Below are positions 21,881-48,199 of a stretch of DNA of 64,000 nucleotides, piece after piece. Within the stretch, counting starts at the first letter, position 1, and each line of letters opens with the position of its first letter. This DNA is from Paracoccaceae bacterium (GTDB taxonomy: Bacteria; Pseudomonadota; Alphaproteobacteria; Rhodobacterales; Rhodobacteraceae): the NCBI GenBank assembly GCA_020628545.1, contig JAHDEX010000011.1:1-64000 (forward strand), written 5' to 3'. The position numbers were made by a program, and so were the translations under genes. The notes beneath the pieces were generated by a model. That model was not told where the DNA came from, ran no database searches, and was given only the letters and a program-made list of their open reading frames with translations.

Positions 21881-22606
21881 GTGCGCCTGACTTTTCCACT
21901 CCTTGCGCTGTTGTTGGTGCTGGCGTCGCCTGCGACAGCGCAGGAATTTTCGTTTTCGTTAGGCGAAGATGGGTCGCTGGCCGGGCGATCCGTTCAGCTT
22001 CTGATCCTGCTGACGGTTCTCAGTCTTGTGCCGGGGATCGCCATCACGGTCACGTGCTTTCCCTTTATCGTCACTGTCTTTGCCATTCTGCGACAGGCAA
22101 TCGGGTTGCAGCAGTCGCCGCCCAATATGCTGATGGTAAGCCTCGCGTTGTTTCTCACTTACTACGTTATGGAACCGGTTTTTGCGGAGGCATGGGCCGC
22201 TGGTGTGGCGCCCGCCCTGGACGGAACTGTCGACCTTGAGACTGGCTTCTTCCTCGCGATGGAGCCTTTGCGGGTTTTCATGACGAGCCGCATCGACGCG
22301 GACACGTTTTTGACCCTTGCCGAACTGCGGCCCGACTTGGAATCGTCGGCGTCGATTGCGGACGCAGGCTTTGGCGTCATCATTCCTTCATTCATGATCA
22401 GCGAATTGGAACGTGCCTTTCAGATTGGCTTTCTCATTTTCCTGCCGTTCCTGGTGATCGATCTGGTGGTTGCCGCCGTGTTGATGTCCATGGGGATGAT
22501 GATGGTCCCGCCTGCGATCGTGTCATTGCCGTTCAAGCTGGCATTTTTTGTGGTCGCGGATGGATGGAGCCTTCTCGCCGCGAGCCTTGTGCGGGGGTAT
22601 GGGTAG
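21881..22606 (+). CDS. fliP: Flagellar export protein FliP
   Basis: SLVPGIAITVTCFPFIVTVFAILRQAIGLQQSPPNMLMVSLALFLTYYVM...IPSFMISELERAFQIGFLIFLPFLVIDLVVAAVLMSMGMMMVPPAIVSLPFKLAFFVVADGW. Confidence 0.97.
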   Translation: MRLTFPLLALLLVLASPATAQEFSFSLGEDGSLAGRSVQLLILLTVLSLVPGIAITVTCFPFIVTVFAILRQAIGLQQSPPNMLMVSLALFLTYYVMEPVFAEAWAAGVAPALDGTVDLETGFFLAMEPLRVFMTSRIDADTFLTLAELRPDLESSASIADAGFGVIIPSFMISELERAFQIGFLIFLPFLVIDLVVAAVLMSMGMMMVPPAIVSLPFKLAFFVVADGWSLLAASLVRGYG

Positions 22607-22644
22607 CACAGAATCTGTGGTGGCCCGTTTGACATGACCCCGTT

Positions 22645-22900
22645 GATTGGGGCCGTTATCTGCAAAGCACCTGCGCGTGAGGATGTAGGCCCCCGGGATT
22701 GGGTGACGGAGGGTCTTCCAACCTTCCTTTGTGGTTGATCTGGTAGTGGCTGCGGTTTGGATGTGGATCAGGGTAATGATGGTTCCGCGCACAATTGTGT
22801 TGTTGCCATTCGAACTGGCATTGGTCGTGGTCGCAAATGGTTGGAGCAATTTCGTCGCGAGTTTTGTGAGGGGGTATGAGTGGCGCAGTACTTGTATCCG
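22645..22900 (+). pseudogene. fliP C-terminal relic, copy 2
   Basis: Starts around GATTGGGGCCGTTATC (equivalent of FliP GFGVII at 22371) and runs to GRVRGYE-equivalent FVRGYE; no fliP N-terminus. Confidence 0.88.
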
Positions 22901-22954
22901 TTTGCTTGGCGTGACCGCCTTTTTTCGGCCCGGCAGCTGAACGGCATCGGCGCG

Positions 22955-23205
22955 TAACCTTGGTGCCATTATCCCGGCGAGGCTTTCTGTTTGTTCCTGC
23001 CGTTTCTGGAGATCAAACTGGTAGTGGCGCCGAATAGATGTCGGTGGGAATGATGATGGTTCCGTCCGCGATGGTGTCGTTGCCGTCCAAGCTCGCTCTT
23101 CCTTGGTTGCAGATGAATGAATCCTTCTCACCGCGCGTCGTGTGAGAGGATACGCGTTTTGCAGGATTTGCCACCGTTTGTTTGGCACGATCCGTCCGCT
23201 CTCCC
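22955..23205 (+). pseudogene. fliP C-terminal relic, copy 3 (internal deletion, frameshift, stop)
   Basis: CTTGGTGCCATTATCC = FliP GVIIP; ~34-bp deletion, then GGCTTTCTGTTTGTTCCTGCCG; LPFLEIKLVVAPN*MSVGMMMVPSAMVSLPSKLAL. Confidence 0.85.
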
Positions 23206-23351
23206 GCAATACCTCGACCGCACTGCGCAACAGGTGTTTGGACGCCCCGATTGCCCTTCTCTAGGTTCATGACAGACATTTTGAACATACGAGGGATCAC
23301 TTCTTGGGCGCCCGGTATTTGAATTGCCCCCTCTCTCTCGTGACCCGAGAA

Positions 23352-24851
23352 TTATTGCGATGAGTGTTCGAGGCCAGCGCGGGTCTTTGCGGAAAACGGG
23401 GCGGCGGGGGGTGCCAGGCGCGCGTTGATGGGGAAACGCAAGAGCTCTGGCCAGAGGCGTCCGACAATCGCGCGCCCTAGCGCGCGGCCCTGTTTCCACT
23501 CTGGTGGAAGGGCCTGCATCATTTTGACGTTGTCGTAGGTCAGGAAGGGCGCATATCGGACCAGCCCGGGCGCTGCGCAATATTGTGCCATCGCCCATGG
23601 CCCCAGCCGAAGTTCCAAGTACGCAAGATCAAGGATCCGATCATTGGGGTGGTCCGCCAATGCATCCCGCCACCACGACAAATAACGCAAAGTCTTTTCG
23701 TGTTGGGGCAGTCCGAGGCGTGCGAGCAGAACCTTCGGTGAGATATGCGAGTTTAACGTGTCATCGTCGTACCAATAGGGCGCTTGGGCGATATCCGCAC
23801 CGATACCGCCGATAAAGGCGTGGCCTGCGTTCAGTTTTGCGACGCTCGCGTGGTGATGCATGTTGCTGTCTGCGCAACTATGGCCAGAGCGGCGCAAATA
23901 AACTTCTTGCGCGGTGCGGTCCGCATTCACATTGGGAAGAATCTCGTGCTTGAGCTGCAGCGTTTCGGCAATGTCACGCGCCACGCGGGTGTCACGATGC
24001 CCCATATTCTCTGGCGCGATGGTCACACACTTAAGGTCCGCGACATTATCGCGAGCGCAAGCCAGGATTGTGCGTGAATCAAGGCCACCTGTTAGTGCGA
24101 GTAAGGGTTTGCGCACGCCGTTTAACAGCGCTTCAATCTGCTGGGAGATTGACGCGATCATACTGTCCACAACGTCATTAGGCGCAAGGGTGGTTGTCTC
24201 AAACCGTGCGGTGTTCCAGCGATGTGCGGTCCATGTATTCAGGTCCAAGTAGTGGTTTGGCAGGAGCCGGTGGACCCCGCTGTGTGCGGTCAGACCAGCG
24301 GTTAGCCAACTGATCGAACCATGACCGAGTGTTGCGAACATGCTGTGATCAAACCGGGCTGCGTAGGCCGCATCGTCAAGTATCGCCATTGCAGTGGCCC
24401 CGGCCGCTTTGGCGTCATGGTCCCAGACGCAGCTAATCTGCGTGGCTGCATCAGGGTAGATGCGATTGAGTCTTGGGGTCTGACAGATCCACAAGAAGCG
24501 CCCGCCAAGTTTGCCAAGTGCGGCGTGAACGCCGCTTTCTGTTGTTAGATCGACGTCGTCTGGAACTGTCCATTTCTGGTCTGGAATTTCACGCCGATCT
24601 AGATCAATCGGGAAGCCGATCAAGGCGCCAAATGTGCCGCCCTTGGCATCGACGACCTCAACAACCGGTAGGTCTGCTGCATGTGAAAGCCAGACGTCGC
24701 CGCATCTGGTTGCACCCGGATGTGGTGTTGACGTAATACGGTATTGCCAAGGTTCCAACGTGATGGACGGATGCGTGGGAAAATTGGAATTGGCTGGCTC
24801 CGGATCCGGCCATAACTGCCCTTGGAGCTTCTCCGACTGTTGCAGGGTCAT
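23352..24851 (-). CDS. Asparagine-synthase-like protein, paralogue 1 (PP-loop retained)
   Basis: LLALTGGLDSRTILACARD (PP-loop), AFIGGIGADIAQAPYW, RIYPDAATQISCVWD; no Cys2 nucleophile; GGGAGG RBS before ATG 24851. Confidence 0.85.
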   Translation of the reverse strand: MTLQQSEKLQGQLWPDPEPANSNFPTHPSITLEPWQYRITSTPHPGATRCGDVWLSHAADLPVVEVVDAKGGTFGALIGFPIDLDRREIPDQKWTVPDDVDLTTESGVHAALGKLGGRFLWICQTPRLNRIYPDAATQISCVWDHDAKAAGATAMAILDDAAYAARFDHSMFATLGHGSISWLTAGLTAHSGVHRLLPNHYLDLNTWTAHRWNTARFETTTLAPNDVVDSMIASISQQIEALLNGVRKPLLALTGGLDSRTILACARDNVADLKCVTIAPENMGHRDTRVARDIAETLQLKHEILPNVNADRTAQEVYLRRSGHSCADSNMHHHASVAKLNAGHAFIGGIGADIAQAPYWYDDDTLNSHISPKVLLARLGLPQHEKTLRYLSWWRDALADHPNDRILDLAYLELRLGPWAMAQYCAAPGLVRYAPFLTYDNVKMMQALPPEWKQGRALGRAIVGRLWPELLRFPINARLAPPAAPFSAKTRAGLEHSSQ

Positions 24852-24905
24852 CCTCTGTCCTCCCTCACGCTGAGGACAGTTTGGATGTGAGCAGTTGCGA
24901 AACAT

Positions 24906-26402
24906 TTAATGAGTTTGTCGAGACAAGTTCCGGTGTGAAACATTTCTTGATGGGCCGAGATTTTGAACGAAGCTTTGAAGCCTTTTGGTCAGGCGCGACC
25001 GCAGCCGAAGTGTCTCATACGGGAACGTGTCAATTGCTGGCCAATGCCGCGTGACCAGCGCCCTGCTTAGCTGCCCATTCCGCCGCAATGCTTTTGGGAG
25101 TGACTGCATCATTTGAACAGTTCTGTATGTGATAAAGGGTGAGATCCGCAGCATGCTTGGATCTGCGCAAAAGCGCGCAGCGTTGCCGGCGCCCATGCCA
25201 AGTTCGAGATAAGCCAGATCGAAGGCATGGCGTGGTTGGATGCCGTCAGGCAGATTGTCGATCCAGTGTGACAGCGCCTTTTCCAAAGCAGTTGAGGATT
25301 TCAGGCCAAGTCGATCGGCCAAAAGGGCAGGCGTAATTGAAAACTCTTGCGGGTCTTGCTCCGTCCAGAGAGGGCAATCTGCGATGTCGTAGCCGTTGCT
25401 GTCGATGAGGCAGTGCCGATCTGCCCAAGACGCGAAAGTGGCTGGATCACTCTGATCGGTCATCGCAGTGCAATGTCCGCTGCGCTTGAGAAACCGCTGA
25501 TGCGTTTCATTGTCTGACCTCATTGCTCCCTGGACGCTGTGCCGGAGATTGAAGGCGGCCACCAATTGTTTGACGCGGGCTGCACGGTGCCGTCCTTTCA
25601 CCGTTACCCATTGAAGATTGCGTACGTGGCCCTTGAGACAGGCCATCAAGCCCGTCGATGCAGGGTCATGGTTTAGCGTGACGACAGGTTGATGTGACCC
25701 CTGCCGCAGCGCGGTCAGCTGCGCATTGACGATGTCGCGGAAGCCATCAAGGCAGACTGCCTGCGACGGATGAGAGATCGTGGGGATCGCGAAGCGATGG
25801 GCCGTAAGGCTACGGAGGTCAAGGTAGTGGTTCGGAAGCAGTCGCGCGACACCGTCATGTGCGGTCAACCCGCCGGGAAACCAGCCACCGTTTGTGATGT
25901 CGAGTTGATCAAAGAGTTTTCTGTCGAACCGGCGTTCGTACTCCGACGGCTGAAGAATTGCGCCTGCTGTCGAGCCAACCTCATCCGTTGAGGCATCCCA
26001 GACACAACTGATCTGCGCCGCGGCGTCGGGGTAGATGCGCATGCCATTACGATGCGGGACGATCCAGATGTAGCGCCCGCCAAGCGCATTTAGAACATTG
26101 GCAATCGCTGCATCATCTCTGGCGTCCCTTTCGGGTGGAGTTGTCCATGTACCCCGCACAAGGGCGGCCGCGTTCAGGTCGATCGGAAAACCGAGCAGGA
26201 TACCGAGATCCTTACCCTGCGGAGATCGCACGATTGTTTGTGGTAACCCTTCACCCAACGAAAGCCAGTAAGACCCAAGAGGTTGCGACCAGGGGTGCGG
26301 CGTTGACGAGAGGCGATATTGCCAGCGGTCCAGGATGATCGGAGGTCGGGCATATGCGGCCGGAGTTGCATCGGTTTTTTGGATTTGCTTGAGGAAAGAC
26401 AA
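24906..26402 (-). CDS. Asparagine-synthase-like protein, paralogue 2 (PP-loop degenerate; probable pseudoenzyme)
   Basis: Paralogous along its length, but the PP-loop position reads VTLNHDPASTGLMACLKGH and the second ATP-site motif reads LIDSNGYDIADC; TTG start after AAGGAGG. Confidence 0.82.
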   Translation of the reverse strand: MSFLKQIQKTDATPAAYARPPIILDRWQYRLSSTPHPWSQPLGSYWLSLGEGLPQTIVRSPQGKDLGILLGFPIDLNAAALVRGTWTTPPERDARDDAAIANVLNALGGRYIWIVPHRNGMRIYPDAAAQISCVWDASTDEVGSTAGAILQPSEYERRFDRKLFDQLDITNGGWFPGGLTAHDGVARLLPNHYLDLRSLTAHRFAIPTISHPSQAVCLDGFRDIVNAQLTALRQGSHQPVVTLNHDPASTGLMACLKGHVRNLQWVTVKGRHRAARVKQLVAAFNLRHSVQGAMRSDNETHQRFLKRSGHCTAMTDQSDPATFASWADRHCLIDSNGYDIADCPLWTEQDPQEFSITPALLADRLGLKSSTALEKALSHWIDNLPDGIQPRHAFDLAYLELGMGAGNAARFCADPSMLRISPFITYRTVQMMQSLPKALRRNGQLSRALVTRHWPAIDTFPYETLRLRSRLTKRLQSFVQNLGPSRNVSHRNLSRQTH

Positions 26403-26458
26403 ATGTCACCTCCTTTTCAGGGTCACCTTCACTGAAGCAAATCATGGTTTCGAAACTG

Positions 26459-27955
26459 TTAACCGAACCGCTGCCGGAGCTTTTTCGCGATCAAGGAGGG
26501 GTTTTCCAGCACGCGTTGGGCCTTGATCCATCGATCCCGCCATGGGCCCAAAGTGTTGTAGGGGTGATCGTTCAGTTCTGGCCACAAACGTTGGACGATT
26601 GCTTCGTTCAGGCGATCGTCCACTTTCCAGTCGTGCTGCAGGTCAAGCAAAAGGCGCACCGCGTCATAGCTGATCATTGGGGAATAGCGTTGCAACGTGG
26701 GGTCCGTACAAAACTGCGCCATTGCCCATGGTCCAAGCCGTAGCTCGACATAGGCAAGGTCCAGAATATCTCGGGCGTCGTCCATCGGTGGAAGGCTATC
26801 AAGCCAATCCGACAGCGCATCTTCGACAGTTGGTGAAGGGCGCAGGCCGAAGCGTTTCATCAGCAGTGCTGGCGTCACTTCAAGCGACGGCAGATCATCT
26901 TTTGTCCAATAGAAAGCGCGTGCGATCTCACCGCCGAGCCCTCCGATAAACACATAATCATCTGCAAGTGGCGCGATGCTCGGATGGAACCGCGTATTGC
27001 TGTCTGCATAGCAGTGTCCGCCACGTCGGATGAAACGCGCCTGTGCAGTCTCGTCCGCTGTCTTTCGTGGAAGAGTCTGGTGAGAGAGATCAAAAGCGTC
27101 CGTTAGTCTGCTTGCAATGATACTATCGACTTGGTGGCGGTCGCCGCCGGTTACCGTGACGAACGTGAGGTCTTGGGCCATATCGCGCAGGCAGGCTAAA
27201 ATCGCGCGGCTGTCGCGTCCCGCGGTGAGGGCCGCAGCGACGGCTTTCTCATCGGTTAACAAGGCTTTGGCCTGAAGACGGACGATGTCGCTGATACCGT
27301 CGATCACCTCATTGGGTTTTGGGTTCGATGGTGTCGTTGCTGCAAAGCGATGTGCGGTCCATGTTGTCAGATCAAGGTAATGATTGGGGAGCAGACGCTG
27401 CACGCCATGATGCGCGGTGAGACCTGCCGGAAACCAACCTTCGCGCCTTATGCCAAGTTCGTCAAAGAGCCGCGCACGAAAGCGTTTCTGATAGTCAGAC
27501 TGTTCTAAGATGGCCCCGGCGGTTGATCCTGCCTCTTTGCCTGCGGCATCCCAGACGCATGTGACCTGTGCTGCTGCATCGGGATAGATACGCGTGCCTG
27601 AAGGGTGCGGCGCTATCCAGACGAAGCGGCCACCAAGAGCGCGCAGTGTCGTGTGAATGGCGTCGTCGGTTCTGACGCCGCATCCGTGCGGAAGATGCCA
27701 AAGGCCGCGTATGAGGCAGGCGGCCCTCAGGTCGATGGGGAAACCAAGCAGCATACCGCAGGGCAGACCGTTGCGATCCACGACCTCTGCAATGGATAAG
27801 CCTTCGCCGACTGAGAGCCAGTACGCGCCGCATCGCCGCCCGCCGGGATGAGGTGCCGCCGTGAGGCGATATTGCCATCGATCAAGCTGGATTTCTGGGC
27901 GCGGGAGACTGGGTGGAACGTGAATCCTTTGCGGCACGTACTGGATGTGGAGCAT
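26459..27955 (-). CDS. Asparagine-synthase-like protein, paralogue 3 (PP-loop retained)
   Basis: AALTAGRDSRAILACLRD, VFIGGLGGEIARAFYW, RIYPDAAAQVTCVWD; start ATG 27955 after GAGGGAGG (ORF-track start at 28171 is too far upstream). Confidence 0.85.
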   Translation of the reverse strand: MLHIQYVPQRIHVPPSLPRPEIQLDRWQYRLTAAPHPGGRRCGAYWLSVGEGLSIAEVVDRNGLPCGMLLGFPIDLRAACLIRGLWHLPHGCGVRTDDAIHTTLRALGGRFVWIAPHPSGTRIYPDAAAQVTCVWDAAGKEAGSTAGAILEQSDYQKRFRARLFDELGIRREGWFPAGLTAHHGVQRLLPNHYLDLTTWTAHRFAATTPSNPKPNEVIDGISDIVRLQAKALLTDEKAVAAALTAGRDSRAILACLRDMAQDLTFVTVTGGDRHQVDSIIASRLTDAFDLSHQTLPRKTADETAQARFIRRGGHCYADSNTRFHPSIAPLADDYVFIGGLGGEIARAFYWTKDDLPSLEVTPALLMKRFGLRPSPTVEDALSDWLDSLPPMDDARDILDLAYVELRLGPWAMAQFCTDPTLQRYSPMISYDAVRLLLDLQHDWKVDDRLNEAIVQRLWPELNDHPYNTLGPWRDRWIKAQRVLENPSLIAKKLRQRFG

Positions 27956-28200
27956 GAGACGCCTCCCTCGTGATGCCTCACCTTGGTGCAAAGATGGTTT
28001 CCATGTTGTTAACGTGCGCAGGCGGCGATCAATGTCGTTGCGACAATTCCATAACCCTTTCCAAACACGGCGTTCCCGTGTATGGCCCGCGCATCTTGGA
28101 AGCACGGCGCCCGCAATCCAGCGCCGATCAAAGAAGATACCGGATTGAGGGGGAATACGCCCCCTACGCAAAAGACCCGCTGGGTCAAAAGGAAAACATG

Positions 28201-30333
28201 ATGTTTAACGAAGTGAAAAAATCGATGCAGTGGGGCGAAGAAACGCTCACTCTCGAAACCGGCAAGGTTGCGCGTCAGGCAGACGGCACCGTGATTGCTA
28301 CCCTTGGTGAAACCTCTGTCATGGCCAACGTGACATTCGCCAAAGCCCCCAAGCCCGGTCAGGACTTCTTTCCCCTGACAGTGCACTATCAAGAGAAATA
28401 CTACGCCGCCGGTAAAGTCCCCGGTGGTTTCTTCAAGCGCGAAGCACGTCCAACTGAAAAAGAGACGCTGACTGCCCGCTTGATCGACCGTCCCATTCGC
28501 CCGCTGTTCGTTCCTGGCTTCAAGCATGAAGTGCTCGTGATGTGCACCGTGCTGTCCCACGATCTGGTCAACGACCCTGATATGGTCGCCATGATCGCGG
28601 CCTCTGCCGCGCTGACAATTTCTGGCGCACCGTTCATGGGCCCGATTGCTGCGGCCCGTGTTGGTTTTGTGGATGGCGAGTACATCCTCAACCCAGAAAT
28701 CGACGACATGCACGATCTGCGCAACAACCCAGAGCAGCGTCTGGACCTGGTTGTCGCTGGCACCAAAGACGCCGTCATGATGGTTGAGTCTGAGGCGTAC
28801 GAGCTGACCGAAGACGAAATGCTCGGCGCTGTGACCTTCGCTCACGAACAGATCCAGCCGGTGATCGACCTGATCATTGATCTGGCCGAAGAGACTGCGA
28901 AAGAGCCATTTGATTTCACACCGCCAGACTATTCCGACCTTTACGAAGTCGTGAAGAAAGCAGGCGAGAAAGATATGGCTGCTGCCTATGCGATCCTCGA
29001 CAAGCAAGAGCGTACCGCCGCTGTTGCCGCTGCGAAGGAAGCGATCAAAGGGGGCCTGACCGAAGAGCAGCTTGAAGATGCGAACCTTGGGTCCGCGCTG
29101 AAGAAGCTCGAAAGCTCCATCTTGCGCGGCGCTGTTGTGAAAGACGGCAAGCGTATTGATGGCCGTGCGCTGAACGAGATCCGCGACATCGTCTCGGAAA
29201 CCGGTGTTCTGCCTCGGACGCACGGGTCTGCCCTGTTCACACGGGGTGAGACGCAAGGTTTGGTCGTGACCACCCTTGGTACCGGCGACGACGAGCAGAT
29301 GATCGACGCGCTGACCGGTATGTATAAGTCAAACTTCATGCTGCACTATAACTTCCCACCCTATTCGGTTGGTGAAGTGGGCCGTGTAGGTTCCCCCGGT
29401 CGCCGTGAGATCGGCCACGGGAAACTGGCATGGCGCGCCCTACAGGCGGTTCTGCCAGCGGCAACCGACTTCCCATACACCGTTCGGGTTGTGTCTGAGA
29501 TCACCGAATCTAATGGCTCGTCTTCGATGGCCTCCGTCTGTGGTGGCTCCTTGTCGATGATGGACGCAGGTGTGCCGTTGAAGGCTGCCGTGGCTGGCGT
29601 GGCAATGGGCCTCGTGATGGAAGAAGACGGCTCTTACGCTATTCTGTCCGACATCCTTGGCGACGAAGACCACCTCGGCGACATGGACTTCAAAGTGGCC
29701 GGTACCGAGAACGGTATCACGTCGTTGCAGATGGACATCAAGATCGCCGGCATCACGCCAGAGATCATGTCCAAGGCGCTTGCGCAGGCCAAAGAAGGCC
29801 GGATGCACATCCTCGGTGAAATGGCGAAAGCGCTGAACACCGCCAACGATCTGGGCGTGCACGCACCCAAGATCGAGACGATGCAGATTGCGACCGACAA
29901 GATCCGCGAAGTCATCGGCTCCGGTGGTAAGGTCATCCGCGAGATCGTGGAAACCTCCGGTGCCAAGGTCGACATCAACGACGACGGCGTGATCAAGATC
30001 GCGTCCAACGACGCGGATGCGATCAAAAAGGCCTACGATATGATCCATTCGATCGTGGCAGAGCCTGAGGAAGGCGTGATCTACAAAGGTAAAGTCGTGA
30101 AGCTCGTCGATTTCGGCGCCTTCGTGAACTTCTTTGGTAAGCGCGACGGGTTGGTGCACGTCAGCCAGATCGAAAACCGCCGCCTGAACCACCCATCCGA
30201 CGTTCTGAAAGAGGGTCAGGAAGTCTGGGTCAAGTTGCTGGGCTTCGACGATCGCGGCAAGGTCCGGTTGGCCATGAAAATGGTTGACCAGGAAACTGGC
30301 GAAGAGATCAAGAAAGAGGAAGCTGCAGAGTAA
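28201..30333 (+). CDS. pnp: Polyribonucleotide nucleotidyltransferase (PNPase)
   Basis: [90 protein letters not shown] and S1 domains at the C-terminus. Confidence 0.99.
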
Positions 30334-31120: not shown

Positions 31121-31254
31121 GCGAGGGCCTGCGACAATTTGGCATGTGTGGTCGCTATGCATCACCGCATCAACCTCACTCTTTTTTGAACGGTGTCTTG
31201 ACCGTCGATTGCATATTATCTCATGAACCCAGTGCGATTCTGAGGACCTTTAAG

Positions 31255-31845
31255 ATGTTAACAAGACGCCATTTTATTGCGACTGGTGCTGCCGTCACCA
31301 CCCTTGCTGCCCATCCTGCGTTTGCACAGGACGTTGAGGGGCCCGCTGCACCCGTCGAACCAGCCGATCCGCTTGCCCCTACACTGGTCACGTTGGCCGG
31401 GGTTGTCGGGGCGAATGAGATCCACATGGATCCGAATATTTTCCGCCTGTACCTGACCCTCGGTGGTGACCAGGCGATACGCTACGCTGTCGGTGTTGGA
31501 CGGCCAGGGCTTTACGAGCCGGGGACGTTTTTCGTCGGCGCAAAGAAAGAGTGGCCAAGCTGGACACCCACGCCAGAGATGATCGAACGTGAGCCGGAGC
31601 AATATGAACAATACAAGGATGGTGTCCCTGGCGGACCGGATAATCCCCTTGGTGCGCGTGCGCTCTATCTGTTCCAGCCGGGACGTGGCGATACATTCTT
31701 GCGAATCCACGGCACGAATGCGCCGCGTACGATCGGCACCGCCGTGTCCAATGGCTGCGCGCGCCTGACAAATGAGTATGTGAAAGACCTTTATGCACGC
31801 ACTCCGATGCGGGCGAAGGTTTTCCTCTACCCACGGGATGTGTAA
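31255..31845 (+). CDS. L,D-transpeptidase (YkuD family), paralogue 1
   Basis: MLTRRHFIATGAAVTTLAAHPAFAQ signal; catalytic IHGTN...SNGCARL. Confidence 0.9.
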   Translation: MLTRRHFIATGAAVTTLAAHPAFAQDVEGPAAPVEPADPLAPTLVTLAGVVGANEIHMDPNIFRLYLTLGGDQAIRYAVGVGRPGLYEPGTFFVGAKKEWPSWTPTPEMIEREPEQYEQYKDGVPGGPDNPLGARALYLFQPGRGDTFLRIHGTNAPRTIGTAVSNGCARLTNEYVKDLYARTPMRAKVFLYPRDV

Positions 31846-31976
31846 CGCGGCGAACTTGCAACAGGATTTCGAAAAAGGGTTAGGATTAGCGCAGTGTTGT
31901 TTTGTGAAGCAAGCGACATTTGCGGTAACGATTTCCCGGCCTAGCCACTCAGACAAAAAGACGACCCGGGACACCA

Positions 31977-32534
31977 ATGCTCACACGCCGTAACTTTGTA
32001 CTTTCCGCTGCTGCGACAACTGTTGCCGCGCCTGCCCTCGCGGCGCCGACTATTGTACGCCTGCCGCGGAAATTTTGGCCTCAAGAGGTCAATGTAAATC
32101 CTGATTTGCCAGCTGGTCAGATCCATGTCGTGAAAGACGACTATTATCTGTACTGGACCTTGGGCAACGGTCGGGCGCGCCGGTACGGCATTGCCTTGGG
32201 GGATCAGGGGCGGAACTATACGGGTGTTTTGACGATCCGCCGGAAGGCCGAGTGGCCAAGCTGGATCCCGACGCAGAATATGATCAACCTGGAGCCAGAG
32301 CTTTACGGTCCTTACCGCAATGGTCTTCCTGGTGGCCACCCGCAAAACCCGATGGGTGCCCGCGCGCTTTACCTCTATGAGGGTGGTCGCGACACCTACT
32401 ACCGGATTCACGGTACGCCGCAGCCCTGGACGATTGGTCAAAGCTTTTCGTCCGGATGCGTACGCTTGATCAACCAGCATGTTGAAGAGCTTTACAGCCT
32501 CGTACCAGTCAATACGCAGGTCTTTATCTTTTAG
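31977..32534 (+). CDS. L,D-transpeptidase (YkuD family), paralogue 2
   Basis: MLTRRNFVLSAAATTVAAPALAAP signal; catalytic IHGTP...SSGCVRL. Confidence 0.9.
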   Translation: MLTRRNFVLSAAATTVAAPALAAPTIVRLPRKFWPQEVNVNPDLPAGQIHVVKDDYYLYWTLGNGRARRYGIALGDQGRNYTGVLTIRRKAEWPSWIPTQNMINLEPELYGPYRNGLPGGHPQNPMGARALYLYEGGRDTYYRIHGTPQPWTIGQSFSSGCVRLINQHVEELYSLVPVNTQVFIF

Positions 32535-45093: not shown

Positions 45094-46605
45094 ATGAAAG
45101 GTGTTCTCATGACCTCCCAATTTGCCCTTCGAAGCGCGGTTTGTGCCGCTGCATTGTTGTCTGCTAGCGCAGCCCTTGCCGATGTCACCGCAGCTGAGGT
45201 TTGGGACAACTGGAAGGCGAATCTGTCGCTTTACGGCGCTGATGGCGTGTCGATTGGCAGCGAGGACGTCAGTGGTGGCACAGTGACTGTGTCGGACCTG
45301 ATTCTGACGATGACCGATGAGGATGTCACGATCACGACATCGGTCGGCACGCTCGTGTTTGAAGAGCAGGGCGATGGTACAGTTGCGGTGACGATGCCCG
45401 AAAGCTACCCCATCGAAATTGTCGATCCAGGTGAAGGTGTCGATGTCTCGCTTCTGCTGACGCAAGACAACATGAACATGATCGTCAGTGGCGAGCCGGA
45501 CGCGATGAATTACGACTTCACCGCAGACAGCTACGAATTTCGCGTGGCTGACATCCGGAGTGATGAAAACTTCGACGGTGATATTGTCATGACGGCTCAG
45601 GGCCTTTCGGGGTCTTATCAGACAGACATCTCCGACGGATTGAACACTAGCTTTGCAATGGCGGCGTCGTCGCTTGATGTTCTGGTTGATGTGAAGGAAC
45701 CGGGCGGCGACGGCTATGTCGTTCTGAGCGGTCAGATGGCTGATCTTGTCACGGACGGCACAATCATGCTGCCGGAAGGGGCCGATCTGAACGATCCGGA
45801 CTCATTCGCAGGTGATTTTACCTTTGATACAGACACCAGCTTTGGCCAGACCGGGTTTGTTTTTGACGTTGATGCCGACGGTGATGCGGCAAAAGGCAGC
45901 TTTCAGGCGGCCAGCCTTGGTGTGAATGCAAGCTTGTCGCCCGACGGGATCCTCTACGAAACTGACCTAAGCAGCGCCGCAATAGATGTAACGGCCGCTG
46001 CCATGCCAATTCCTGTTCAGATTTCGATGGCCGGTTTGTCGAACAGGTTTGAAATGCCCACGTCGGCAAGTGAAGAACCTGCGCCGTTTGGATATCGCCT
46101 CGCGCTGCTTGATCTAGTTGTCAACGATGAGATCTGGGCGATGGGTGACCCGGCAGGCGCACTACCGCGGGATCCGGCGAGCATTATTCTTGATGTGTCG
46201 GGCATGGCGACGTTGTTCTTTGACCTGCTTGATCCAGAGCAGGAAGCTGCGATTGCCCAGGCCGGTGTGCCGGGCGAACTGATCTCATTCGCTGTGAATG
46301 AGATTCTGGTGTCCGCTGTCGGGACTGAGATTACGGCAAACGGAGACTTCACCTTTGACAATACCGATCTCGAAACATTCGATGGGCTTCCCCGTCCGAT
46401 GGGCGAGCTGAACATCAGTATTGCTGGCGCGAACGCGCTGATTGATACGCTCGTCAGCATGGGACTGTTGCCGCAAGAGCAGGCCACCATGGGTCGTATG
46501 ATGATGGGCATGTTCACGCAGCCTGCCGGGGATGACGTGCTTTCGTCCAAAATTGAGATCAATGAACAGGGCCATGTGCTGGCCAATGGTCAGCGTATCC
46601 AGTAA
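45094..46605 (+). CDS. DUF2125-family protein, paralogue 1
   Basis: Signal peptide plus ADVTAAEVWDNWKANLSLYGADGV; C-terminal GANALIDTLVSMGLLPQEQATMGRMMMGMF...NGQRIQ. Confidence 0.85.
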   Translation: MKGVLMTSQFALRSAVCAAALLSASAALADVTAAEVWDNWKANLSLYGADGVSIGSEDVSGGTVTVSDLILTMTDEDVTITTSVGTLVFEEQGDGTVAVTMPESYPIEIVDPGEGVDVSLLLTQDNMNMIVSGEPDAMNYDFTADSYEFRVADIRSDENFDGDIVMTAQGLSGSYQTDISDGLNTSFAMAASSLDVLVDVKEPGGDGYVVLSGQMADLVTDGTIMLPEGADLNDPDSFAGDFTFDTDTSFGQTGFVFDVDADGDAAKGSFQAASLGVNASLSPDGILYETDLSSAAIDVTAAAMPIPVQISMAGLSNRFEMPTSASEEPAPFGYRLALLDLVVNDEIWAMGDPAGALPRDPASIILDVSGMATLFFDLLDPEQEAAIAQAGVPGELISFAVNEILVSAVGTEITANGDFTFDNTDLETFDGLPRPMGELNISIAGANALIDTLVSMGLLPQEQATMGRMMMGMFTQPAGDDVLSSKIEINEQGHVLANGQRIQ

Positions 46606-46620
46606 TCTATTCACAACATG

Positions 46621-46655
46621 GGGGCGCGGCAGAGTATGGCCGCGCCCTTTTCTAT
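46621..46655 (+). terminator. Rho-independent terminator between the DUF2125 paralogues
   Basis: GGGGCGCGGCAGAGTATGGCCGCGCCCTTTTC. Confidence 0.85.
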
Positions 46656-46672
46656 TCAAAGCTGAGGAATTC

Positions 46673-48199
46673 ATGATGCTTTCATTCCGTCTTCTTGGTT
46701 CAACGTCCGCTGCCGCCGTGCTGTTGGCGGCGCAACCCGCCTTCGCAGACGTCACCGGCCCTGATGTGTGGGCGGCATACATTAGCTTCTATGAAGCAAC
46801 CGGGGCGCAGGTGATCGGCGATGTCACAACGACAGGCACCGAAACCGTCGTATCTGATCCCGCATTGCTGTATCGGTTCCCTTTTGGGATCGCGACAGTG
46901 CGCATGGGCATCCCCGAAATGCGTTTGACCGATCAATCCGATGGGACAGTAACGCTTGCCTATCGAGACACTTTTGATGTCACGATTGATGTCGATGTGC
47001 CCGACCAAGGGTCAGGATCCGGCGTCTTTAGTGTGACCCAGTCAGGTTTCACAAGCACTGTCAGTGGTGATCCCGATGCGATGAGCATCACGTACGCAGC
47101 CGACACAATGGCGCTCGAGGTCAAGGAAGTTACCCTGGATGGGGAGCCATTTGACGTGCAAGGCAAGCTCCTGTCTGAGGGGTACAGCGGCACCTCGACT
47201 ATGGCGCTGGGTGAAGAGCTGATTACTGTCACAAGCGATCAAAGCATTGGCGCGGCGGAGCTTGCCTACATCATGACGTCCCCGTTTGGCGACGTGACTT
47301 CACAGACGGGAACATACGCGCCGTCCTCCTATCAGTCGGAAATGGCGTTACCCGCCGGCGGCAGCAGCCTGTTTACGCTTTCGCAGACTTTGCGAGATGG
47401 TGCGTTCGTGCAGGTCGCTTCGAAGACTGAAGGAAGCACGACAGAAAGCGTCTCGTCCATTGATGGTGATGTCTTTTATGAGGACAAGGTCACAACCGGA
47501 CCGGCGCAGACGGATATGCGTATTGATGCTTCGGGTGTGAAGATCTCTGGCGAAGCAGGGGCGAGCAACTTCCGCGTTAATGCCGTGGACATGGCCCCGT
47601 TCCCGCTTGAAGGTGGCATCGAATCTGTCAGCGCAAACTATGCGTTTCCCCTTTTGCCGAGCGAAGACCCACAAGAAATTGTCTTCAAGATGGGATTGAA
47701 AAACCTGAGTGTCAGTGAAGAGCTTTGGGCATTGGTTGATCCGACAGCCGCCTTGCCGCGTGATCCAGCTTCATTGAACATCGACCTCTTGGCGAGTGTA
47801 ATTTCCGAAATCGACTGGCTTGATTTTGCAAACCTTGAAGCGCAACTGGATCAGCCAATTCCGCCTATCTCGCTTGAACGCCTGATGATCAATGACGTCT
47901 CGGTCAGCGCGGTTGGTGCAGCGGCTGAGGCGAACGGGACGTTTACGCTCGACTTCGATGACCTGGACACGTTTGACGGTTTCCCGCGGCCCGAAGGCGA
48001 AGGGTATCTGGCGGTTACCGGTGCGAATGCTTTGATCGACCGTCTGACGACCATGGGGCTGATCGGGCCAGAAGAAGCCGGAATGGCCCGCCTTGGCATG
48101 GGCTTTATCGCGCGTGCGACCGGTGACGATGCTTTTGAAACCGCCGTTGAGATCAATGAGGCGGGTGAGGTCTATGTGAACGGTCAACGGATGCGTTGA
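46673..48199 (+). CDS. DUF2125-family protein, paralogue 2
   Basis: MMLSFRLLGSTSAAAVLLAAQPAFADVTGPDVWAAYISFYEATGAQV; C-terminal GANALIDRLTTMGLIGPEEAGMARLGMGF...VNGQRMR. Confidence 0.85.
   Translation: MMLSFRLLGSTSAAAVLLAAQPAFADVTGPDVWAAYISFYEATGAQVIGDVTTTGTETVVSDPALLYRFPFGIATVRMGIPEMRLTDQSDGTVTLAYRDTFDVTIDVDVPDQGSGSGVFSVTQSGFTSTVSGDPDAMSITYAADTMALEVKEVTLDGEPFDVQGKLLSEGYSGTSTMALGEELITVTSDQSIGAAELAYIMTSPFGDVTSQTGTYAPSSYQSEMALPAGGSSLFTLSQTLRDGAFVQVASKTEGSTTESVSSIDGDVFYEDKVTTGPAQTDMRIDASGVKISGEAGASNFRVNAVDMAPFPLEGGIESVSANYAFPLLPSEDPQEIVFKMGLKNLSVSEELWALVDPTAALPRDPASLNIDLLASVISEIDWLDFANLEAQLDQPIPPISLERLMINDVSVSAVGAAAEANGTFTLDFDDLDTFDGFPRPEGEGYLAVTGANALIDRLTTMGLIGPEEAGMARLGMGFIARATGDDAFETAVEINEAGEVYVNGQRMR

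Follow-up and report, generated by a model that had tools for sequence, protein, structure and literature searches.

Enzymes of the asparagine synthetase B (AsnB) superfamily convert a carboxylate into an acyl-AMP, which is then attacked by a nitrogen; this chemistry is established for AsnB, beta-lactam synthetase and the lasso cyclases. The products of AsnB-like enzymes include beta-lactams, lasso peptides, peptide nitriles and sugar amides. Several described systems can be compared with the locus considered here. One is the pair of beta-lactam synthetase (BLS) and carbapenam synthetase (CarA), in which the two-domain AsnB fold comprises a glutaminase half without the Cys and a PP-loop ATP domain. 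Another is AsnB itself, which is alike in the overall fold. The lasso and macrolactam cyclases (NF033535 and NF033561) belong to the same superfamily and have an inactive glutaminase half. The last are AsnB-like enzymes found at glycan loci, namely WbpS, WbqG and the exosortase-associated amidotransferase (TIGR03108); WbpS and WbqG make uronamides and provide a sugar-amide precedent for the tailoring of bacterial glycans (PMC7468200).

In the window (the whole 64,000-nucleotide stretch of DNA that was analysed, from a marine bacterium), three consecutive paralogues, referred to as g1, g2 and g3 hereafter, lie between fliP and pnp. The features of this region are as follows.

21881..22606, plus strand: fliP, convergent with the array; left border of the insertion
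22607..23351, no strand: spacer from fliP to g1, containing two decayed tandem copies of the fliP 3' end
23352..24851, minus strand: g1, predicted ligase paralogue, 499 aa (517 aa from ATG 24905)
24906..26402, minus strand: g2, putative pseudoenzyme paralogue, 498 aa; TTG start with a strong Shine-Dalgarno sequence
26459..27955, minus strand: g3, first gene of the array, predicted AsnB/beta-lactam-synthetase-like ligase, 498 aa (from the reading frame, the Shine-Dalgarno sequence judged by eye, the alignment and homologues)
27956..28197, no strand: divergent intergenic region between g3 and pnp, common to both genes
28198..30333, plus strand: pnp (polynucleotide phosphorylase), divergent from the array; right border

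Three full minus-strand open reading frames (23352-24905, 24906-26402 and 26459-28171) each contain the shared motifs quoted in the initial annotation, and the proteins are 37% (g1-g2), 44% (g1-g3) and 43% (g2-g3) identical, far above chance, which confirms the paralogy claimed there. The placement of the array between a flagellar gene and pnp also holds, with fliP on the left and pnp on the right. The likely start codons are ATG 24851 (or ATG 24905) for g1, TTG 26402 for g2 and ATG 27955 for g3; Shine-Dalgarno-like sequences were recognised by eye for the g2 TTG 26402 (AAGGAGGTGA) and the g3 ATG 27955 (GAGGGAGG). No sigma-70 consensus promoter was found in the g3/pnp intergenic region (27956-28197). 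When the genome (142 contigs, 94% complete) was searched with g1 by tblastn, the other two paralogues were found at 5e-125 and 2e-92, and no further significant copy was detected. A periodicity of about 1.55 kb, marked by TTAA motifs, had also been noted. The spacing (1550 and 1553 bp) is real, each gene being about 1497 bp long and separated from the next by about 55 bp. In reverse orientation, the motifs at 24906 and 26459 are the stops of g2 and g3, respectively, and the motif at 28009 is the stop of a shadow open reading frame antisense to pnp. Since the TTAA motifs are stop codons and the period is the gene length, they do not define a separate repeat unit.

We examined the fold with AlphaFold (AF2) models of g1 and g2, whose mean pLDDT values were 85.5 and 85.1. 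The top Foldseek matches of both models were BLS, CarA, TsnB9 and AsnB, over about 500 columns, with BLS at 1.3e-13; since the TM-scores are about 0.5 with a large rmsd, they indicate the same fold with diverged domains and no close match. With a profile of 28 relatives, BLS was first (5.6e-8; HMM match 1jgt) and CarA third (6.4e-5), while asparagine synthetases appeared only at about 0.6. The models, Foldseek and HMM searches agree on a class II amidotransferase fold at the N-terminus followed by a C-terminal PP-loop domain, which bears out the two-domain AsnB-like architecture first proposed. From the two models and the profile searches, g1-g3 are predicted members of the AsnB superfamily, with BLS and CarA as the nearest described enzymes. 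As had been observed, no chain opens with the Cys2 nucleophile; neither g1-g3 nor any of the 28 aligned relatives has it. Among the library models, the Pfam Asn_synthase cut-off was passed by g1 only (31 bits), and g2 and g3 passed none. A contig scan with g1 as the sole query gave no match, and the alignment of 28 sequences was too diverse to serve as its query.

The relatives, which occur in bacteria and archaea, share the same length, an N-terminal QF-LS start and the G-R-Y, Y-x-D and P-N-H-x-L-D-L motifs, while the C-terminal tail varies. Members of this TAGxDSR/SGGxDSR family are usually present in a single copy, often at polysaccharide loci; the array differs from them in being tripled, in lying at the fliP-pnp junction and in its apparently dead middle copy. 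It differs from BLS and CarA in the low identity (about 15%), the lack of an antibiotic cluster, the altered PP-loops in its clade and the g2 copy without a PP-loop. Unlike WbpS, WbqG and TIGR03108, its family has no glutaminase nucleophile, and the TIGR03108 model matched none of the 28 family members.

The family PP-loop motif is S/T-G/A-G-x-D-S-R. It is kept in g3 (LTAGRDSRA, with TAGRDS; GLGGEIARAFYW) and in g1 (LTGGLDSRT, with TGGLDS; GIGADIAQAPYW). In g2, the loop is replaced by LNHDPASTG (NHDPAS), and the GGE motif is also replaced (DSNGYDIADCPLW). The synthase C-domain had been taken as common to all three genes; as regards the PP-loop, this is correct for g1 and g3, but its loss from the middle gene was overlooked. 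The PP-loop Asp is retained in 24 of the 28 aligned family members, and the Asp or Ser has drifted in near relatives (TAGYETR in the genus genome G424, TAGHETR in locus L096, TAGNETR in Sedimentitalea and G105, and TAGTNTR in Pseudorhodobacter). With the PP-loops of several near relatives altered, some parts of the clade may have a changed ATP chemistry or none. At the position that we take to correspond to Tyr348 of beta-lactam synthetase, which has a Tyr/Glu catalytic dyad (GYGADI vs. GIGADI/GLGGEI), the residue is Ile or Leu; the region of the catalytic lysine is not confidently alignable.

A clear contrast is seen between the two halves of g2. Conserved sites were defined as positions identical across g3, G424, L096, L097 and G105, and the boundary between the N- and C-domains was chosen by us at 18 columns ahead of the PP-loop. 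The g2 protein retains all 35 conserved sites in the N-domain and 24 of the 49 in the C-domain (Fisher, 6e-8); given some dependence among the sites and the analyst-set boundary, this p value is only a guide, although the contrast is still large. In g1, no such split was found (30 of 35 and 37 of 46, respectively; Fisher p 0.57). Recent gene conversion was considered as the source of the conserved N-domain of g2 and rejected: four-fold sites between g2 and g3 differ at 0.71 in the N-domain and 0.68 in the C-domain, i.e., silent sites are saturated in both halves. The g2 reading frame is intact with a codon-position bias, and its eroded C-terminal half is still open and predicted to fold. From these sequence features, we read g2 as a maintained pseudoenzyme. 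Standard ATP binding appears to be lost in g2, so its conservation pattern would best fit an N-domain that acts as a partner or a regulator, and g2 may now serve as a helper part.

The gene neighbourhoods of the relatives provide a clue to the function. The nearest homologue outside the genus (46% to g3; annotated as hypothetical) is encoded on a plasmid of Pseudorhodobacter turbinis, where the cluster around it includes genes for polysaccharide export, a sugar transferase, Wzz, CpsD, an O-antigen ligase and glycosyltransferases. The homologues in L096 (44%), Sedimentitalea, Rhizobium, Phenylobacterium and Natrinema have similar surroundings, with flippase and beta-helix proteins among the neighbours; in L042, L096, L097, L098, L102 and L167, a family member has a right-handed beta-helix protein of the polysaccharide lyase/epimerase-like kind as its neighbour. 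Among 117 neighbour proteins from 36 loci of the wider family, the commonest Pfam families were glycosyltransferases and polysaccharide flippases (4 each), a modest enrichment in which the counts are uncontrolled top-of-list values and many distant members have other neighbours. Because the near relatives examined outside the genus are located in exopolysaccharide clusters, amide-bond tailoring of a polysaccharide is the likeliest role. In two unrelated genomes, a second, different PP-loop protein was found beside the family member (L096:9434-10930, SSGYDST; L111:1-1131, SSGYDSP). That of L096 has no Pfam match and a weak profile match to the family (E 0.009), and no significant homologue of it was found in the present genome.

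No polysaccharide genes were found beside the array itself. Contig C16 of the same genome carries a cluster syntenic with that of Pseudorhodobacter and without the ligase-like gene (AAA, 67% identity; Wzz, 59%; sugar transferase, 57%; GT2, 51%; CpsD, 50%; O-antigen ligase, 47%), and it is plausible that the array acts in trans on the product of this cluster. Co-occurrence in the genus gives no support to this link, because G424 and G433 each carry just one partner: close homologues of the C16 O-antigen ligase occur in this genome and G433 only, and those of the array gene in this genome and G424 only. No homologue of the companion beta-helix protein of the Pseudorhodobacter locus was found in this genome, an empty result of limited weight.

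Based on the neighbours of the relatives and the WbpS/WbqG precedent, the family's function is most likely the amide tailoring of surface polysaccharide. For the array, we favour, with moderate confidence, a glutamine-independent set of amide ligases of this kind, in which g2 would be retained as a pseudoenzyme. ATP-driven activation of a carboxylate (acyl-adenylation) would take place in the C-terminal PP-loop domain, and the amine of a second substrate, or of the same molecule, would attack the activated carboxylate. Because a glutaminase site is absent, the amine would have to come from the substrate or from free ammonia. The N-terminal domain, a glutaminase fold without its nucleophile, would be kept for structure or binding. 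The target would be a cell-surface polysaccharide, e.g., one in which an amino acid or other amine is coupled to a uronic acid. Of the three proteins, g3 is probably the working enzyme and g1 is probably active or specialised; the N-domain of g2 probably still matters, for example in the role of a regulator or partner subunit.

The cluster is restricted to a single lineage. In a comparison of 57 genomes of the genus, a close homologue was found in one other, G424, where one gene occupies the same fliP-pnp junction; it overlaps the fliP stop by 4 bp and has pnp on its other side. Far more divergent members of the family (25-32% identity) occur at other loci in a few further genomes of the genus. 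In G403 and G442, about 220 bp of gene-free sequence separate fliP from pnp. The pnp-proximal stretch of about 130 bp is conserved in all four genomes compared, including those without the array; the array thus lies upstream (on the fliP side) of this stretch, and, together with the two gene-less junctions, this places the gain or loss exactly between the fliP end and the pnp leader. Of the three paralogues, g3 is the closest to the G424 gene (49%). In the tree, g1, g2, g3 and the G424 gene group together (98/97) and g2 pairs with g3 (93/78), while the node that joins g1-g3 without G424 has weak support (80/23). The simplest reading is an insertion followed by tandem duplication on the spot; one gene would have been inserted between fliP and pnp in this lineage and then duplicated twice.

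The spacer of about 745 bp between fliP and g1 contains two decayed copies of the last 170 bp or so of fliP, at about 22717-22885 and 22995-23162, with a 277-bp unit (repeat region noted at 22396-23226); the initial annotation had passed over them. At 5 of 7 and 6 of 7 diagnostic sites, the copies carry the private bases of the resident fliP, and none of 28 other fliP genes of the genus resembles them as closely, so they are local tandem duplications; their origin as traces of outside site-specific integration was rejected on the same grounds. They are judged younger than the array duplications because their silent divergence is lower. Their differences from the resident fliP are mostly at third codon positions, as expected for a functional fliP with dead copies. 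In another genome, which has no full fliP match, a 59-codon remnant of the fliP 3' end was found beside TRAP-transporter genes (G447:C9:84224-84403, L086).

The polysaccharide-tailoring reading has to be weighed against alternatives. A horizontally acquired polysaccharide-tailoring gene may have been duplicated beside fliP and now be a decaying insertion without function, with g2 eroding and g1 and g3 to follow. The patchy distribution (2 of the 57 genus genomes), the separation of the array from polysaccharide genes, the lost active site of g2, the altered PP-loops of several relatives and the decay of the fliP 3' copies nearby are all consistent with this. However, the three reading frames of about 500 codons are intact with good ribosome sites while silent sites are saturated (0.6-0.7), which indicates long persistence of the array; moreover, change is far rarer at non-synonymous than at third positions, and every deeply conserved site is kept in the N-domain of g2. 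We consider decay unlikely.

A bolder form of the tailoring reading, which we regard as a rather long shot, is a single hetero-oligomeric ligase, a split-role machine derived from tandem duplication of a beta-lactam-synthetase-like enzyme. Here, g2 would contribute only its glutaminase-fold domain (for binding, targeting or allostery), and g1 and g3 would catalyse successive amide couplings on the surface polysaccharide. Tandem family copies in other lineages may be parallels: three copies in L114:6429-10819 and two each in L104:6101-9146, L105:7563-11019 and L160:5958-9014. These belong to Chloroflexota, Sphingomonadales and Syntrophaceae and, as far as seen, are not near flagellar genes. In L129, two family copies are located 1 kb apart.

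A role in flagellin modification or together with the flagellum is suggested by position, since both the array and the single G424 gene adjoin fliP. Nevertheless, G403 and G442 have the junction without the gene, most flagellate members of the genus lack it altogether, and the other near homologues examined are in polysaccharide clusters. A conserved flagellar association, which had been raised for checking, was thus found in one relative only, and a flagellar function, very improbable in our view, was rejected on the absence of the gene from most flagellate relatives.

We also give little credence to the idea that the array closes macrolactams in a ribosomal peptide, as a lasso-type or other RiPP-type cyclase set would. 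The superfamily is shared, and the best NCBIfam match of g1, a weak one, is an albusnodin/ikarugamycin-type macrolactam cyclase (9e-8; 31 bits vs. a cut-off of 300). Against this, the array scores about one-tenth of the cyclase cut-offs (NF033535 and NF033561) and has no partner genes, a search of the genome for the B2-type transglutaminase-like peptidase (PF13471) gave nothing above cut-off, no precursor, PqqD-like or transporter gene was recognised beside the array, and the homologues are neighboured by polysaccharide genes. On the missing B2 homologue and precursor and the low scores, this candidate was rejected. Of the relatives named in the initial annotation, beta-lactam synthetase thus stands as the top profile and Foldseek match, whereas the lasso cyclases do not; the statement that no biosynthetic partner or precursor peptide is evident was upheld.

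Least probable is an ordinary glutamine-dependent asparagine synthetase set, which we rejected because Cys2 is missing and model scores are low (TIGR01536, 21.7 bits vs. a cut-off of 267.1); one copy also lacks the ATP loop, and the proteins are not glutamine-dependent by sequence. In its favour are the superfamily membership and the PF00733 search of the 94%-complete genome, in which no other gene was a convincing AsnB (31 bits or less). Asparagine is probably made another way in this genome. Anti-phage defence was set aside, as g1-g3 matched no PADLOC model and no homologue was found in phage records or viral contigs.

The array had been put forward as an undescribed system. It is a real, uncharacterised variant, but not a categorically new system: it belongs to one branch of a widespread family that recurs at polysaccharide loci within a known superfamily. 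No paper on the TAGxDSR/SGGxDSR family was found in the literature. The family is a large AsnB-like branch with a dead glutaminase half, recurrent at exopolysaccharide loci, for which no assigned chemistry was found and to which library models are nearly blind. One apparent operon that combines an active, an altered and a dead form of the enzyme would offer a direct route to the role of the glutaminase-fold domain once it no longer feeds ammonia.

Two further paralogous pairs were observed in the window. Between pnp and a peroxiredoxin gene (31144-32534), two adjacent genes encode paralogous secreted proteins that are L,D-transpeptidase-like by eye. Another adjacent pair of paralogous secreted proteins, with no function assigned, occurs at 45094-48199 and has a common ADVT..VWxxW start.
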